Virus record (IMG/VR): IMGVR_UViG_3300023215_001378
Location: 1 to 35,454 of that record
DNA length: 35,454 bases
Origin: a virus
Strand: one strand, 5' to 3'
In this document: positions 6,938-35,454 of the stretch, piece after piece
Layout: every line of letters begins with the position of its first letter
Position numbering within the stretch: position 1 is the first letter of the stretch
Position numbers and translations under genes: made by a program
Notes under the pieces: model-generated
The model's input: only the letters and a program-made list of their open reading frames with translations
What the model was told of the DNA's origin: nothing
The model's database searches: none

Positions 6938-7189
6938 TTAGGCGGCTTTGTTATTTAGCTCTTCTGCAGTGACGCCGTAGTGCATCAGCACCTCTGACAA
7001 GGAGACGTTGCCTTCACTGGCTTTGGCTAGCTTGCGCATGTACCTCAATGAAGCTGCCTTTCTGGCTTTCAGCACATGCACTCTCAAATAGCCCGCTGAA
7101 GTACCAACACGTACAGCATAAGCTTCCAGTGGGTTCACGCCTCGCGCATCAGTTCGGTCAAGCTCTCGAAGATAGTCATATAACTTCAT
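6938..7189 (-). CDS. Cro-like early repressor
   Basis: An 83-residue protein with a helix-turn-helix-like segment (about 21-46, LEAYAVRVGTSAGYLRVHVLKARKA), reminiscent of Cro/YdaS-type proteins. The start at 7189 is preferred because GAGG precedes it; the frame extends to 7228. It diverges from the CI-like repressor across a palindrome-rich operator region, the standard Cro position. It would bind the same operators and favour lytic growth. It could instead act as a YdaS-like antitoxin, but no toxin partner is seen. Confidence 0.75.
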   Translation of the reverse strand: MKLYDYLRELDRTDARGVNPLEAYAVRVGTSAGYLRVHVLKARKAASLRYMRKLAKASEGNVSLSEVLMHYGVTAEELNNKAA

Positions 7190-7199
7190 AGCAGCCTCG

Positions 7200-7264
7200 A
7201 TACTACCTATATGGTATTGGCTTATCAATACCCAAATGCTCGTTTACCTTTTAGGTAATGTCAA
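7200..7264 (-). promoter_or_regulatory. Early promoter/operator region between cro and cI
   Basis: Two palindromes of form TACC-N5-GGTA lie at 7204-7216 and 7245-7257 (the latter extends to TTACCTTTTAGGTAA, 7244-7258), with a half-conserved third at 7229-7241. On the minus strand a consensus TTGACA at 7259-7264 has GAGCAT 17 bases on, with the second palindrome in the spacer. Alternatively TTGATA (7223-7228) has TAGTAT (7200-7205) at 17 bases, with the first palindrome in its spacer, but that would leave almost no leader before cro. Either way a protein on the palindromes should block the cro-side promoter. Confidence 0.65.
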
Positions 7265-7277
7265 GGAAACTTGGCTC

Positions 7278-7910
7278 ATGGATATCAAAACTACGCGCCG
7301 CATGCGCGTTCAGAGCCTCATCAAAGAGCGTGAACTGACCCTCAAGGCTTTTGCGGACAAGATCGACCGCAGCCAAGGCCAGGTAAGTGCCATTGCAGGA
7401 GCCTCAGCCCACAAGGGCATTGGGGACGCATTGGCACGTCATATCGAAAACTGCCTCCACCTTCCCCACGGTCACCTTGATCAGCCCATCGCAGACAACA
7501 ATGCCTCGGTCATCACAACTACGACTTCGCGCCAATTACCCGTGCTTGGCCTAGCATCGGCAGGGAAGCTCATGGAAAACATCCAGGAAGCGAATGTAAC
7601 AGAATACGTAATTGCTCCAGGCCCGACTGGCCCTCAAGCTTTTGCCCTTCGTATCGAAGGGATCAGCATGGAGCCCCGCTTCCAAGAAGGGGACAAAATC
7701 GTTATCGACCCTGACCTGGAATGGAAGAACGGCGATTACGTCTATGCCATGCGCATTTCGGATAATCACGGCACTTTCAAGCAGCTGCGTTGCGAAGATG
7801 GCGAGATGTACCTCTGTGCAACAAACCCTAGCTTTGAGCCGCGTTACACACGAATGGATGGTGAGTGGACCATTCTTGGAAAGGCCAGATGGCGAGTAGA
7901 AGACCTCTAG
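7278..7910 (+). CDS. CI-like repressor with LexA/S24 autoprotease
   Basis: A 210-residue protein with an N-terminal DNA-binding region (about 11-60, LTLKAFADKIDRSQGQVSAI) and a C-terminal S24 peptidase. The expected cleavage site A95-G96 (LASAGK), nucleophile S130 (GISMEP) and general base K168 (GTFKQL) are all present, so RecA-stimulated self-cleavage and SOS induction are likely. The start at 7278 follows AAGGAAA; an upstream frame start at 7236 overlaps an operator and has no ribosome site. It is followed after 20 bases by the protease gene, which probably shares its transcript. Confidence 0.9.
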   Translation: MDIKTTRRMRVQSLIKERELTLKAFADKIDRSQGQVSAIAGASAHKGIGDALARHIENCLHLPHGHLDQPIADNNASVITTTTSRQLPVLGLASAGKLMENIQEANVTEYVIAPGPTGPQAFALRIEGISMEPRFQEGDKIVIDPDLEWKNGDYVYAMRISDNHGTFKQLRCEDGEMYLCATNPSFEPRYTRMDGEWTILGKARWRVEDL

Positions 7911-7930: not shown

Positions 7931-8824
7931 ATGCGTGGAATTGATACACACATCAAAGAAGTACTGAACGAAACGGCGCACAAGCTCGAGCAGCACAACC
8001 TACTTGAGTGTGCTGTAATCGCTTACGTCGGCCCAATTCATCCGCAAATTCTCGACTCATTTATTAGCAAAATCGAGCAAGTGCGAGCCCGCATTGACAA
8101 GGTACCTGATCACCCGAATCCGCGACGACTTGCAATAGTTCTCACTACTGGTGGAGGAGTGGTTGAAGTCGTCGAAAAAATGGTTCAAGTGACACGTCGA
8201 CATTTTGATGAGGTTTTCTTCATTGTCCCAATGGAGGCAATGTCGGCAGGCACAATTTGGTGTATGTCTGGTGATAAAATTTTCATGGATTACACAGCAT
8301 CTCTTGGCCCAATAGACCCTCAGGTGCAGAACCCAGAAGGCCATTTCGTGCCCGCTCTGGGCTATATTGACAAGGTCAACGAAATTATCAGCAAGGCGCC
8401 TGGCACGATCAGCGACGCTGAAGCGATGATGATCAATCGCCTTGACTTGGCCACGTTGAGGCGGTACGAGCAGGCAAGAGATCTATCTATAACTCTTCTC
8501 AAAGAGTGGCTAGTACAATACAAATTTAAGAATTGGACTCAACATAGGACGCATAACCCTGGCACCAATGTCACCAGCGACCAAAAGGAGCAACGCGCAC
8601 GCGACATCGCGACGCAACTCAGTGATAATAACCTTTGGCATTCACATGGTAGGATGATCAGTATTGACACCTTACGATCTAAGCTCCATCTTGAGATCGA
8701 AGATTATACGGAACAAAGAGAGTTTCGAGAGCATCTAAAAGCGTATGCAGGGATGCTAGTAGAATACATAACACATAATAATCAACCATTTATAGTCCAC
8801 ACCACGACGGTAGGAGCAACATGA
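7931..8824 (+). CDS. SppA/ClpP-fold serine protease (SDH-proteinase-like)
   Basis: A 297-residue protein with a Clp/crotonase-type core. An oxyanion-loop candidate TTGGG is at 72-76, the nucleophile candidate S105 sits in EAMSAGT, then SLGPIDPQ (124-131), and a late HSHGRMI (237-243) offers candidate His residues. This order matches serine dehydrogenase proteinase/SppA-like proteins. No signal peptide or membrane segment is seen, so it is probably cytoplasmic. It lies between the repressor and a strong terminator and overlaps the next gene, so it should be expressed in the lysogen. It is AT-richer than the phage backbone. Its role is unknown; superinfection exclusion or defence is inference from the rex-like position. 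Confidence 0.8.
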   Translation: MRGIDTHIKEVLNETAHKLEQHNLLECAVIAYVGPIHPQILDSFISKIEQVRARIDKVPDHPNPRRLAIVLTTGGGVVEVVEKMVQVTRRHFDEVFFIVPMEAMSAGTIWCMSGDKIFMDYTASLGPIDPQVQNPEGHFVPALGYIDKVNEIISKAPGTISDAEAMMINRLDLATLRRYEQARDLSITLLKEWLVQYKFKNWTQHRTHNPGTNVTSDQKEQRARDIATQLSDNNLWHSHGRMISIDTLRSKLHLEIEDYTEQREFREHLKAYAGMLVEYITHNNQPFIVHTTTVGAT

Positions 8825-9027
8825 TGAAGACTCTAGCTCAAAGAGTCTCTGAGCGTTTGGATGTAGAAATGCACTCAAGCAACCGCCCAAATGCTGAAAG
8901 ACTCACTAAACTTTCTGAGCAATTTGCCTCTTTAGAGAGCAAAGGACATGTTCAAAAAGACAGATTTAGCGCTATGCCACCCACTGCGCTACATCCGCTA
9001 GGGTCCTCAAACCTTCAGCTCATGTAA
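8821..9027 (+). CDS. Unknown small partner of the protease
   Basis: A 68-residue protein I do not recognise. It starts in the ATGA overlap with the protease stop and has AGGAGC upstream, so the two are translationally coupled. The sequence is charged and helical (QRVSERLDVEMHSS, AERLTKLSEQFASLE) and ends in a Pro-rich tail without a membrane segment. The tight coupling suggests that it binds, regulates or is a substrate of the protease. A second Met (8824) could be the start. Confidence 0.7.
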   Translation: MMKTLAQRVSERLDVEMHSSNRPNAERLTKLSEQFASLESKGHVQKDRFSAMPPTALHPLGSSNLQLM

Positions 9028-9035
9028 GATCGAGT

Positions 9036-9066
9036 CAAAAAAGACGGCCTTCGGGCCGTTTTTTTA
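9036..9066 (+). terminator. Terminator of the repressor-protease operon
   Basis: ACGGCC (9044-9049), loop TTCG, GGCCGT (9054-9059) and a seven-T run, with an A-run before the stem. This strong intrinsic terminator separates the lysogenic operon from the next early promoter. The A/T symmetry could make it work in both directions. Confidence 0.92.
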
Positions 9067-9068
9067 TA

Positions 9069-9119
9069 TACCAATGATACCCCAAAGGTATTTACAAAAT
9101 ACCAAACAGGTATTAGCCT
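9069..9119 (+). promoter_or_regulatory. Second early promoter with repressor-type operators
   Basis: TACC-N5-GGTA palindromes lie at 9078-9090 and 9100-9112, matching the two in the cro-cI region; a half site is at 9069-9072. A candidate -35 TTTACA (9091-9096) and -10 TAGCCT (9114-9119) are 17 bases apart, with the second palindrome inside the spacer. This would be the counterpart of lambda PL, driving the plus-strand operon from 9155 and silenced by the same repressor. The -10 is poor; TATTAG at 9111-9116 is an alternative. Confidence 0.65.
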
Positions 9120-13069: not shown

Positions 13070-13560
13070 GCTACGAAGCATGGCGTATTTCATTTCAAAA
13101 CTCTGAGCAGGCCGCGAAGGCGGCCTTTGAAGAAGCCCAGCGATATAAGCGAATGTTCAACATGTCGATCGACAGCATTGTTGAACTGACTGAAGCCGTG
13201 GGTATCCGCAAAGAAGATCAAACCATGGGCGGCACCGTCCAGACGTTGGCCGCGATTGAGAAGCTAAAGGCGCGGCGGGATAAGTGGAAAGCACGGGCGC
13301 TGGAGGCTGAACAGGGGAACCGTGGAGAACCGTCACCCAGCACTACTCTTGCCCTCCGCGATGTTCTTCAGCAATCAATAGGCATGGAAAAAGCAGCGCT
13401 ATTCATAGAACAGAAAGCCAATAGCTATAACGAAGAGCATGGCGACACAGACCCATCGACTGGCCATCGTGAATACCCTGGTGATGGTGAAGAGTATTAC
13501 AACGAGCTGATGGAACTAGCTGAAGAGCTTCGCCTACAAGCCAACGGGGGCACCCAATGA
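13066..13560 (+). CDS. Unknown coiled-coil early protein, 164 residues
   Basis: Not recognised. It is mostly helical and charged: FQNSEQAAKAAFEEAQRYKRM, then a Lys/Arg-rich coil IEKLKARRDKWKARALEAEQ. An acidic end contains DTDPSTGHREYPGDGEEYYN. No signal or membrane segment is seen. It starts in the second copy of the 27-base repeat and ends overlapping the methyltransferase start by four bases. Confidence 0.7.
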   Translation: MSYEAWRISFQNSEQAAKAAFEEAQRYKRMFNMSIDSIVELTEAVGIRKEDQTMGGTVQTLAAIEKLKARRDKWKARALEAEQGNRGEPSPSTTLALRDVLQQSIGMEKAALFIEQKANSYNEEHGDTDPSTGHREYPGDGEEYYNELMELAEELRLQANGGTQ

Positions 13561-15275
13561 AACGACTGCCTCCCCACTGGCGCACCCAGTACGCCCTAGA
13601 CTACCAGGGTGAAATCAACGTCGATCTATTTGCGGGCGGCGGCGGTGCGAGCACCGGCCTAGAGATGGGCTTGAAGCGCCCCGTGCACGTCGCCATCAAC
13701 CACGATCCCGACGCGATCAGCATGCACACAGCCAACCACCCGGGCTGCGAACACTACCAAAGCGATGTCTACGAAGTGGACCCGCTTACCGCCACACGCG
13801 GCCAGCCGGTTGGCTGGCTGCATGCCAGCCCCGATTGCACCCATCACAGCCAAGCCCGCGGTGGGCAGCCACGCAAACGCGCTATCCGCTCGCTAAGCTG
13901 GGTCGTTCACAAATGGGCAGGCCTAGTTCGCCCCCGCGTGATCTCGCTGGAGAACGTTGAGCAAATACTGCAGTGGGGCCCACTCGTCGCCAAGCGCTGT
14001 AAAGCCACCGGCCGCGTTATGAAAATCGACGGCACCGTTGCCGCACCAGGTGAGCACACGCCGATCAATGAACAGTTCCTAGTGCCCTGCAAGAAGCGCC
14101 GCAGCCAGAACTGGCGGCACTTTATCGGCGGTTTGCGCGCCCTGGGATATGTCGTCGAGTGGCGCACCATTGCCGCGTGCGACTTTGGCGCACCCACTAC
14201 CCGCAAACGGCTTTACCTCATTGCCCGCCGGGATGGTCAACCCATCGTCTGGCCTGCAGCTACTCACGCACGCAAGCCCGCCAAGGGCCAACAGCGCTAT
14301 GCATCGGCGGCATCCTGCATCGACTGGTCGGATCTAGGCAAAAGCATCTTCAACCGCCCGCGCCCACTCGCAGAGAACACGCTGAAGCGCATCGCCAAGG
14401 GCATTGATAAGTTCGTGATCAATTCTTCCCAGCCCTTCATCGTGCCGATCGCCAACTACGGGTCCGGCGAAGTCGTTCAACCCATCAGCGAGCCGCTACG
14501 CACGATTACCGCATGGCCCAAAGGCGGCAGCTTCGCCGTGGCATCTCCTTGCTTAGTCCAGCTCGCTCACGGCCAAGGCAAACCCGGTGGCGTTCAACGC
14601 TGGGGAATCGGCAGCCGCGACATTGAAGAGCCGATGAACACAATCACCGCCAGCAGTGGCATGGCAGTGGCAACCGCGTTCATGGCGCAAATGAACGGCG
14701 GATTCTACGAAGGCGCAGGCCGCGCCGCCGATGACCCGCTAAGCACGATCACCGGGCGCGGTACTCAGCAGCAGATCGTGACAGCGCACCTGATGGTACA
14801 GCGCAGAAACCAAAGCGGTGCAGACGTAAACGAACCGCTGCACACCATCACCGCCGGGGCCAACCACCACGGCTTAGTGCATTGCACCCTATCGCCTCAG
14901 GTAGAAGAAAGCGCCCTGCAGGTGGCCGCATTCCTAATGCGCTACCACAGCACCGGTGGCCAGTGGGCAGGCCTGCAAGAGCCGATGACCACCATCACCA
15001 CCAAAGACCGGCTGGCGTTAGTGACCGTCTATATCAAAGGCACGCCCTACGTCATCGTGGATATCTGCCTTCGCATGCTCAAACCCCGCGAGCTCTACCG
15101 CGCCCAAGGGTTTCCCGATAGCTACATCATCGATCGCGGACACGATGGAAAACCGTTCACCATCACCGCGCAAACCCGCATGTGCGGCAACAGCGTCAGC
15201 CCGCTGCCCATGGCCGCGCTCGCGGCCGCTAACGATCACCAAGTCATCGAACGTCACATGGAGGGCGTGGCATGA
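13557..15275 (+). CDS. C5-cytosine DNA methyltransferase with repeated PLxTIT modules
   Basis: A 572-residue enzyme that should transfer methyl groups from S-adenosylmethionine to cytosine C5. Motif I is DLFAGGGGASTG (23-34), motif IV SPDC with nucleophile C94, motif VI ENV (132-134), motif VIII TTRKRLYLIARR (214-225), and the C-terminal motifs are RELYRAQGFP (511-520) and GNSVSP (544-549). Between VIII and the C-terminus are five spaced copies of EP(L/M)xTIT (311, 357, 392, 425, 474) where a target-recognition domain should be. No restriction partner is visible, so self-protection against host restriction is likely. Confidence 0.9.
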   Translation: MKRLPPHWRTQYALDYQGEINVDLFAGGGGASTGLEMGLKRPVHVAINHDPDAISMHTANHPGCEHYQSDVYEVDPLTATRGQPVGWLHASPDCTHHSQARGGQPRKRAIRSLSWVVHKWAGLVRPRVISLENVEQILQWGPLVAKRCKATGRVMKIDGTVAAPGEHTPINEQFLVPCKKRRSQNWRHFIGGLRALGYVVEWRTIAACDFGAPTTRKRLYLIARRDGQPIVWPAATHARKPAKGQQRYASAASCIDWSDLGKSIFNRPRPLAENTLKRIAKGIDKFVINSSQPFIVPIANYGSGEVVQPISEPLRTITAWPKGGSFAVASPCLVQLAHGQGKPGGVQRWGIGSRDIEEPMNTITASSGMAVATAFMAQMNGGFYEGAGRAADDPLSTITGRGTQQQIVTAHLMVQRRNQSGADVNEPLHTITAGANHHGLVHCTLSPQVEESALQVAAFLMRYHSTGGQWAGLQEPMTTITTKDRLALVTVYIKGTPYVIVDICLRMLKPRELYRAQGFPDSYIIDRGHDGKPFTITAQTRMCGNSVSPLPMAALAAANDHQVIERHMEGVA

Positions 15276-33863: not shown

Positions 33864-33886
33864 AAAAGCCCGCACAATGGCGGGCT
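33864..33886 (-). terminator. Terminator overlapping the portal stop
   Basis: AGCCCGC (33867-33873) and GCGGGCT (33880-33886) form a 7-bp stem with a 6-base loop and TTTT on the minus strand. It overlaps the portal stop codon and precedes the protease gene. Confidence 0.8.
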
Positions 33887-35454
33887 AGGTATCTTCGGTT
33901 TCGGTGGGCGACTCTTGCACTTTGCCGCCTACATACACAGGAACGCCGTTATCGCGTTTCCACTTGATTTCTCGTGCGCGGTCCTGGGCGATGTCGCCCC
34001 AGTCTTCGCCGTGATGCGACATGGTTTCCAGCGTTTCGTTGCTGGTACCGTTGGCGATGCGCTCGGTGGCTGCTCTGGCGTCTACCAGCTCATTTAGTGA
34101 GCCCATGGGCTCCCCGATCCAGATCGCGCGCGTATACGCACGGCGTTTGGCGGGGTCGCGGTAACCGGGCAAATTGATCATGCCGCTAGCCACCATCTCA
34201 TCAACCACCAGGTCATAGGCGGGTTGGCACCATTGCGTCGTCAAATGATGGCGACGCTGCCGAATAAACTTCCATAGCTGATTGAAGGCAGCGCGGGCTG
34301 CGGTGTAGCTTGTGCTGAAGTGCATCAGCACCACTTCAGAGGGCTGGTCCAGCGCCGCTCCAATCTGTTTCACCACCGCCACAAAGAATGGGTCGAACTG
34401 AGCGTTCGGCCTTGCAGGGTTGATCGGTACCGGTTCAGCGCCTTCCTCTAAATCCCACACCGCGCCTTCACCTAACGCAAGGCTGTCGCCTTCAGGCTCG
34501 TGGCTGCGTTCGCTCTGCACCACGGGGCGCGATGGTTTATTAGGGTCGTTGCTCTGTTCATCCCATAGCGTGGCACCGCCCAAGCCCGGGTCATCCTCCT
34601 CGTTTCTTTCATGCTTGATGGCCACGGTGAACATCGCGCTGATAACGGCTGCAGTCAATTCTGCCTGACTGAACCGCTCCAGTTTTTGAAGCGCTTCCAA
34701 CACCGGCGCGAGATAAGGCACGCCACGCGTGAGCCCAGGCCGATCTTTTTCGTTCATCAGGTGCAGAATGCGGCGGCGGCCGGTCTCGGCACCAAATACG
34801 GGCACCCATTCCCACGTTTGCTTTGTTAAGTAGTCATTTGGGTACCCATCGCACACGCGCACATGGGTTGGCTTTCCCAGCCTACCCACACGAATGCCGT
34901 CAATTTCATTGGCAGTATTCAGGTCAGCTAGTGGGTTGCCTACGCGCTCGGCTTCTACCAGCTGCAGCTTCAGCTCAAACAATCCGCCGGGGTGGCGCTC
35001 CATAGGCGTGAAACCAAACACATCGCCGCTGACCAGTGCGCTCACAAACGCCAAACGCTGCAAGCTATAGAAATCTAGCGTCGCTTCGGCATCGCATTCA
35101 GTGGGGCTTTCAGCCCACAGTCGGAAATGACGTGCCAACTGCTCATTCAGCGCTTTGGTCTGCTCATCATTTAATCCCAGCGCTTCGCCATCCACGTTAG
35201 GGCGCACCGTCAGGCCCATGCCTACCACGTTGGTAGCGGCTCGGCTAATCGCGGCTCGGCCTAGCAGGTGATTGCGGTAAGCGTCGCGCGAGCGGCCAAT
35301 CAGCGTTTCACGTTCACTGGTTGGCGTATCCTGCCGAGGGCTGCCCATGCCAGGAATCCAGCTCAGCATGCTACGCAGCATGCGGCTGGCCCCCCGGTGC
35401 CGGGTTTCGCTGCCTACGTTGGCACGCGATGCGGGCTGGCTGGACTTGAGCTTT
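33885..35454 (-). CDS. Portal protein, lambda B family (5' partial)
   Basis: At least 522 codons of a lambda-type portal: GRSRDAYRNHLLGRAAISRA, then TNVVGMGLTVRP, GDVFGFTPMERHPG, ILHLMNEKDRPGLTRGVPYLAP and VVLMHFSTSYTAARAAFN. The first in-frame ATG within the window is at 35381. The frame stays open to the window edge, and the upstream residues (SRANVGSETRHRGASR) look like normal portal N-terminus, so the true start is outside. Portals form the dodecameric DNA gate at one capsid vertex. Terminase genes should follow beyond the edge. Confidence 0.9.
   Translation of the reverse strand, partial: KLKSSQPASRANVGSETRHRGASRMLRSMLSWIPGMGSPRQDTPTSERETLIGRSRDAYRNHLLGRAAISRAATNVVGMGLTVRPNVDGEALGLNDEQTKALNEQLARHFRLWAESPTECDAEATLDFYSLQRLAFVSALVSGDVFGFTPMERHPGGLFELKLQLVEAERVGNPLADLNTANEIDGIRVGRLGKPTHVRVCDGYPNDYLTKQTWEWVPVFGAETGRRRILHLMNEKDRPGLTRGVPYLAPVLEALQKLERFSQAELTAAVISAMFTVAIKHERNEEDDPGLGGATLWDEQSNDPNKPSRPVVQSERSHEPEGDSLALGEGAVWDLEEGAEPVPINPARPNAQFDPFFVAVVKQIGAALDQPSEVVLMHFSTSYTAARAAFNQLWKFIRQRRHHLTTQWCQPAYDLVVDEMVASGMINLPGYRDPAKRRAYTRAIWIGEPMGSLNELVDARAATERIANGTSNETLETMSHHGEDWGDIAQDRAREIKWKRDNGVPVYVGGKVQESPTETEDT

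Follow-up and report, generated by a model that had tools for sequence, protein, structure and literature searches.

What is the role of a gene pair that lies between a CI-like repressor gene and a terminator in the DNA of a temperate phage, in the slot that in lambda is occupied by rexAB? The window, namely the whole stretch of 35,454 bases of IMG/VR sequence analyzed here, carries genes for a lambda-type portal and minor tail, for an integrase and for a CII-like regulator; for 8 kb of its tail region, no match was found in the phage collection. In the immunity region, the repressor gene is followed after a 20 bp gap by a gene for a predicted serine protease, whose stop overlaps the start of a 68-aa gene (ATGA), and then by a hairpin with two 12-nt stem arms (9038-9049/9054-9065) that are 92% complementary and precede a run of T's (Table 1). 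This arrangement agrees with a preliminary description of the sequence, which had placed the overlapping pair between a CI-like repressor and a strong terminator.

Table 1 Features of the immunity region of the window and loci compared for the cI-distal slot
Feature	Position	Strand	Basis or remark
Candidate OR: two TACC-N5-GGTA palindromes	7204-7216, 7245-7257	.	Between divergent gene 6938-7228(-) and cI
CI-like repressor	7236..7910	+	Peptidase_S24 domain PF00717 E 3e-20; phrog_4
SDH-type ClpP-fold (predicted) serine protease, 297 aa	7931..8824	+	PF01972, phrog_11747, residue conservation, relative's model
Protease residue codon, S105	8243-8245	+	
Protease residue codon, D129	8315-8317	+	
Protease residue codon, H239	8645-8647	+	
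68-aa partner protein	8821..9027	+	Predicted helix or helical hairpin and C-terminal tail; profile match
Rho-independent terminator-like hairpin with T run	9038..9065	+	
Candidate OL: two TACC-N5-GGTA palindromes	9078-9090, 9100-9112	.	Upstream of rightward operon from ~9155
Alternative-occupant locus of the cI-distal slot	L143 3236-4542		
Alternative-occupant locus of the cI-distal slot	L145 3324-4181		
Alternative-occupant locus of the cI-distal slot	L147 3222-4268		
Alternative-occupant locus of the cI-distal slot	L148 3196-3531		
Degraded copy	L060 3001-4075		Protease frameshifted, small gene kept
Degraded copy	L061 3014-3184		Protease absent, small gene kept
Degraded copy	L063 3041-3952		Protease IS-truncated, small gene kept

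Five copies of the palindrome TACC-N5-GGTA are present in the window (at 7204, 7245, 9078, 9100 and 35223), against 0.12 occurrences expected by chance, and four of the five bracket the block of cI, the gene pair and the terminator. With such palindromes on both sides of the block, the rexAB position that had been proposed for the pair is a literal one. Judging from their position and symmetry, we regard the palindromes as candidate CI operators. Since the palindrome at 7245-7257 would otherwise fall inside cI, and since an RBS-like AAGGAAA lies upstream of 7278, the true start of cI is probably the ATG at 7278 and not the listed start at 7236. The pair had also been described as AT-richer than the phage backbone. 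The GC content is indeed 46% over 8001-9000 compared with about 57-62% across most of the remaining window; however, a few other stretches of the window also fall to 49-50%.

The protease passed the cutoff of Pfam PF01972 (SDH_protease; 54.4 bits, cutoff 31.3) and matched phrog_11747 over its full length (E 1.2e-63, 216 bits), whereas its score against the NCBIfam equivalog NF047768 (Clp_like_SDH) was 61.6 bits, far under the cut-off of 250. S105 sits in the motif EAMSAG and is invariant in 47 of 47 protease relatives, as are G75, G76, D115, D129, H239 and R241; in SDH-type proteinases, the residue order is Ser-Asp-His. A structure model of a relative that is 57% identical to the window protease (L008) had pLDDT >90 over most of the protease, and its comparison with ClpP chains gave a Z of 14.7 and an rmsd of 3.2 with 177 residues aligned. 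Foldseek matches of this model also included SppA and the stomatin-specific protease PH1510-N, and the best matches among viral models were proteins named serine dehydrogenase proteinase. By way of this relative's model, the window protease is predicted to have the ClpP fold. The fold and the serine of the "SppA/ClpP-fold" protease in the preliminary description therefore stand, while the SppA label is loose, as the profiles give an SDH-type protease and ClpP is the best structural match (Z about 14). The protein is probably an oligomeric cytoplasmic peptidase, in which Ser105, His239 and either Asp129 or Asp172 would be catalytic.

The protease thus resembles SDH-type ClpP-like proteinases in its Pfam score, its conserved Ser, Asp and His and its ClpP-like fold, but differs from them in its NF047768 score, its obligate-looking small partner and its distribution as phage cargo. 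ClpP, SppA and NfeD1b (PH1510-N) belong to the same fold class by structure comparison, yet the identity is only 12-17%, and neither a signal peptide nor an adjoining AAA+ partner or stomatin gene was seen for the protease. A PDB sequence search returned nothing relevant. PHROG 11747, which is annotated as of unknown function, comprises the phage members of the family; it records neither a function nor a partner, and the partner and the linkage to the immunity region are described here. We also considered and rejected a head maturation protease of the ClpP type. That a capsid-maturation enzyme has merely been misplaced would be in line with the weak similarity to phrog_53 and NF045542, but the chance of this is very nearly negligible: the phrog_53 score is 26 bits compared with 216 bits for phrog_11747, the gene is located in the immunity region, on the opposite strand from, and far from, the portal (33885-35381) and tail genes, and most relatives are not beside head genes.

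No Pfam, PHROGs, NCBIfam or PADLOC family matched the small protein, and neither protein of the pair matches a system component of PADLOC 2.0.0. Nevertheless, an ORF of about 56-86 aa trails nearly every close protease relative in genome contigs, plasmids and phages. These small proteins have in common a helical part at the N terminus and a C-terminal tail with a G followed by (Y/F)-x-(L/I)-(P/A), the family motif of the tail being G-x-x-x-(K/P)-x-x-(Y/F)-x-(L/I/x)-(P/A). A profile made from 36 sequences adjoining protease relatives in genome contigs, with the window left out, recovered the 68-aa gene at E 2.7e-7. The same profile matched 15 of 47 viral or window loci at E 0.01 or better, while a background of ~2,460 short ORFs gave a single match at E<=1, which itself overlaps the pair position in locus L101. 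In comparisons of the E. coli-type copies, the protease has a dN/dS of about 0.05 and the small gene one of 0.2-0.3, the latter from few changes. Because of the conserved adjacency, the shared tail, the profile match and the dN/dS, the 68-aa gene is, judged from sequence, a real gene that belongs with the protease, as had been described. We also modeled the two proteins in a tethered form by in-frame read-through of the natural stop codons (TAA or TAG as Gly). In these models, the stretch 331-340 had a pLDDT of 58 with a shallow alignment of the small protein and 88 with more rows, and the final tail stayed near pLDDT 50.

The association with the repressor was then quantified in viral contigs, in line with the preliminary proposal to search for the pair across prophages and for its linkage to repressors. 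Among proteases distinct at <95% identity with >=500 bp of upstream sequence, a CI/S24 repressor ends <=500 bp upstream on the same strand in 19 of 36, in contrast to 7 of 775 other ORFs (>=150 aa) of the same contigs; the linkage is thus conserved. The 19 of 36 is a lower bound obtained with a CI profile built from the same set, and locus L079, for example, has an unrecognised HTH gene at this place. Furthermore, proteases that are 94-100% identical adjoin CIs that are merely 21-37% identical: the proteases are 100% identical in each of the locus pairs L071/L072, L095/L097, L089/L112 and L093/L121, where the CIs share 24%, 25%, 30% and 30% identity, respectively. Near-identical proteases behind unrelated CIs indicate that the pair is a swapped cassette that moves independently of the repressor.

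This exchange bears on the question of whether the protease regulates lysogeny or induction by trimming CI or an antirepressor and thereby setting the induction threshold. ImmA/ImmR in ICEBs1 is a model for such a protease-type regulator, and the pair adjoins cI in many phages and has an M78/IrrE-HTH gene nearby in one chromosomal locus (L022). However, the same protease is found behind unrelated CIs, which disfavors a role as CI co-regulator; moreover, most chromosomal loci are without any CI, and the CI carries its own S24 domain. We therefore consider an induction regulator decidedly unlikely. In three further loci (L114, L115 and L110), the pair adjoins an integrase-like gene and not a repressor, as judged from ORF translations; this is possibly a second cargo site in some phages.

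The slot itself could be compared among E. coli prophages. In seven loci (L001 and L058-L063), the pair or its remnant lies behind a LexA-type cI, either directly or one tiny gene later, and the E. coli loci with the pair represent at least two kinds of prophage, lambda-like and DEAD-helicase-type. Phages whose cI is 92-99% identical carry in the same slot a DUF6978/DUF1828 pair, an NYN-domain protein, a 348-aa protein of unknown type, or nothing (Table 1); the DUF6978/DUF1828 pair resembles the PADLOC candidate PDC-M24A/B. Because near-identical cI genes are followed by differing occupants or none, the cI-distal site is a cargo site.

Three of these loci hold degraded copies in which the protease is lost or broken and the small gene is kept (Table 1). 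This is compatible with the protease being harmful and its partner harmless, although the events are few. It is also what is expected of a toxin-antitoxin or addiction module, in which the small protein would inhibit a toxic protease mainly for the retention of the prophage or plasmid, possibly with abortive infection as well. The tight two-gene unit and the existence of plasmid copies agree with such a module. Given the small number of independent decay events, and given that most chromosomal hosts have no need of an addiction module, we hold this explanation to be rather unlikely.

Beyond phages, the two genes are conserved together in at least seven phyla, with taxa taken from record titles. 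Relatives sharing 41-57% identity belong to Pseudomonadota, Bacteroidota, Gemmatimonadota, Nitrospirota, Bacillota, Verrucomicrobiota, Desulfobacterota and further groups, many of them being from MAGs; a Bacteroidota MAG (G006, the genome of L011) gave five SDH-like protease matches, which vary in their similarity. The occurrence within taxa is patchy. Of 5426 complete E. coli genomes, 17 contain most of the pair; in the Pedobacter family sample it is present in 2 of 151 genomes, and in a Pseudomonas genus sample in 1 of 298, that one being the seed itself. With such patchy occurrence in hosts, the pair is not confined to unlinked host housekeeping genes, the outcome that the preliminary description had named as refuting its reading.

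Many of the chromosomal copies adjoin ordinary genes (PNTB, Mg-chelatase, MFS, 3HCDH), which makes the defence-island signal weak, and some have defence genes nearby (PD-T4-7, type I restriction). In locus L007 (5217-6131), a PD-T4-7-like defence protein is encoded upstream of the pair's closest Pseudomonas relative, at a distance of ~1.8 kb. The stand-alone copies beside ordinary genes, together with the ClpP fold, are what would be expected if the pair were host-benefit cargo (a moron), i.e., a stress or quality-control protease that aids the lysogen apart from phage exclusion; lysogen-expressed slots also carry fitness genes. There are three points against this explanation. First, the presence of the pair is very patchy. 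Second, the other occupants of the slot include nuclease-like and defence-candidate genes. Third, a dedicated tiny partner is conserved with the protease. We consequently see host-benefit cargo as unlikely, but with an appreciable minority chance of being correct.

Meanwhile, the pair is also present on plasmids. On two Rhizobium plasmids (L002 3065-6850 and L003 3045-7070), it directly follows an operon of multiubiquitin, a ThiF adenylyltransferase and DUF6527, and there the protease might take part in a ubiquitin-like pathway of bacteria. An obligate tie to this operon was rejected, as the operon did not recur among the neighbors of the other loci. Clustering of the neighbors across loci likewise yielded no conserved third partner; only the small gene and CI recur.

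Since the pair recurs in the same spot of many unrelated phages and stands alone in many phyla, it is probably a portable protection module. In a temperate phage, it would serve as portable two-gene cargo of the immunity region, and the 20-bp gap and the common terminator suggest co-transcription of the pair with cI in the lysogen. The conserved C-terminal tail of the small helical protein would dock on the protease as a pseudosubstrate inhibitor, an activator or a substrate adaptor. The pair would most likely act against superinfecting phages, either by excluding them or by abortive defence: upon infection, the control by the small protein would be relieved or redirected, and the protease would then destroy a phage or host protein. 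We put about even confidence in the reading that this is a lysogen-expressed exclusion or putative defence module, in which the tail of the partner controls or targets a ClpP-like protease. Our confidence falls somewhat short of even for the broader proposal, namely that the pair is an undescribed cross-phylum anti-phage system, in which a tiny tail-bearing partner holds or aims the protease, and that its capture into the rexAB slot by temperate phages has happened repeatedly, so that it serves there as a lysogen exclusion system.

In favor of exclusion or defence, we count the cross-phylum conservation, the CI linkage, the cassette swap, the cI-distal slot and its other occupants, together with the patchy spread, the purifying selection, the invariant Ser and His, the ClpP fold and the flanking palindromes. 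Against it, we count the lack of a PADLOC match, the chromosomal copies beside ordinary genes, the dependence of the partner's role on conservation and adjacency, and the low confidence of the terminal tail in the tethered models. Overall, the interpretation in the preliminary description is partly supported.

Comparison with known systems places the pair close to RexAB in layout. As with lambda RexA/RexB and the RexAB-type system of P. putida (PMC12894663), two genes lie directly or nearly directly behind CI. The order OR - cI - gene pair - terminator - OL is also that of lambda cI-rexAB, with the operators here being candidates, and expression in the lysogen is implied here, from the sequence layout, as it is for RexAB. 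The scans of Pfam, PHROGs, NCBIfam and PADLOC matched the pair to no Rex family. RexA-type proteins bind DNA and lambda RexB is a membrane protein, whereas the present pair combines a predicted ClpP-fold protease with a protein of 68 aa that shows no obvious membrane segment. The location has published precedents: in P. putida, RexAB-type defence genes follow a CI-like repressor (PMC12894663), and P2-like prophages of Vibrionaceae have an antiviral hotspot next to cI (PMC9122126). The pair had been thought to be new, and this stands within the literature searched: we found no description of it in accessible work on SDH or ClpP-like proteases in exclusion or defence, the rex slot or the ubiquitin-like operon, a scope that excludes most subscription journals and preprints.

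If the proposed function is correct, the exclusion repertoire of lysogens would gain proteolysis by an enzyme of the ClpP fold that has its own mini-partner, PHROG 11747 would receive a function, and the lambda rexAB slot would be a site of exchangeable cargo that occurs with many types of CI. Elsewhere in the window, 13557-15275 encodes a C-5 cytosine DNA methylase of 572 aa, with Pfam domain matches in three separate stretches.
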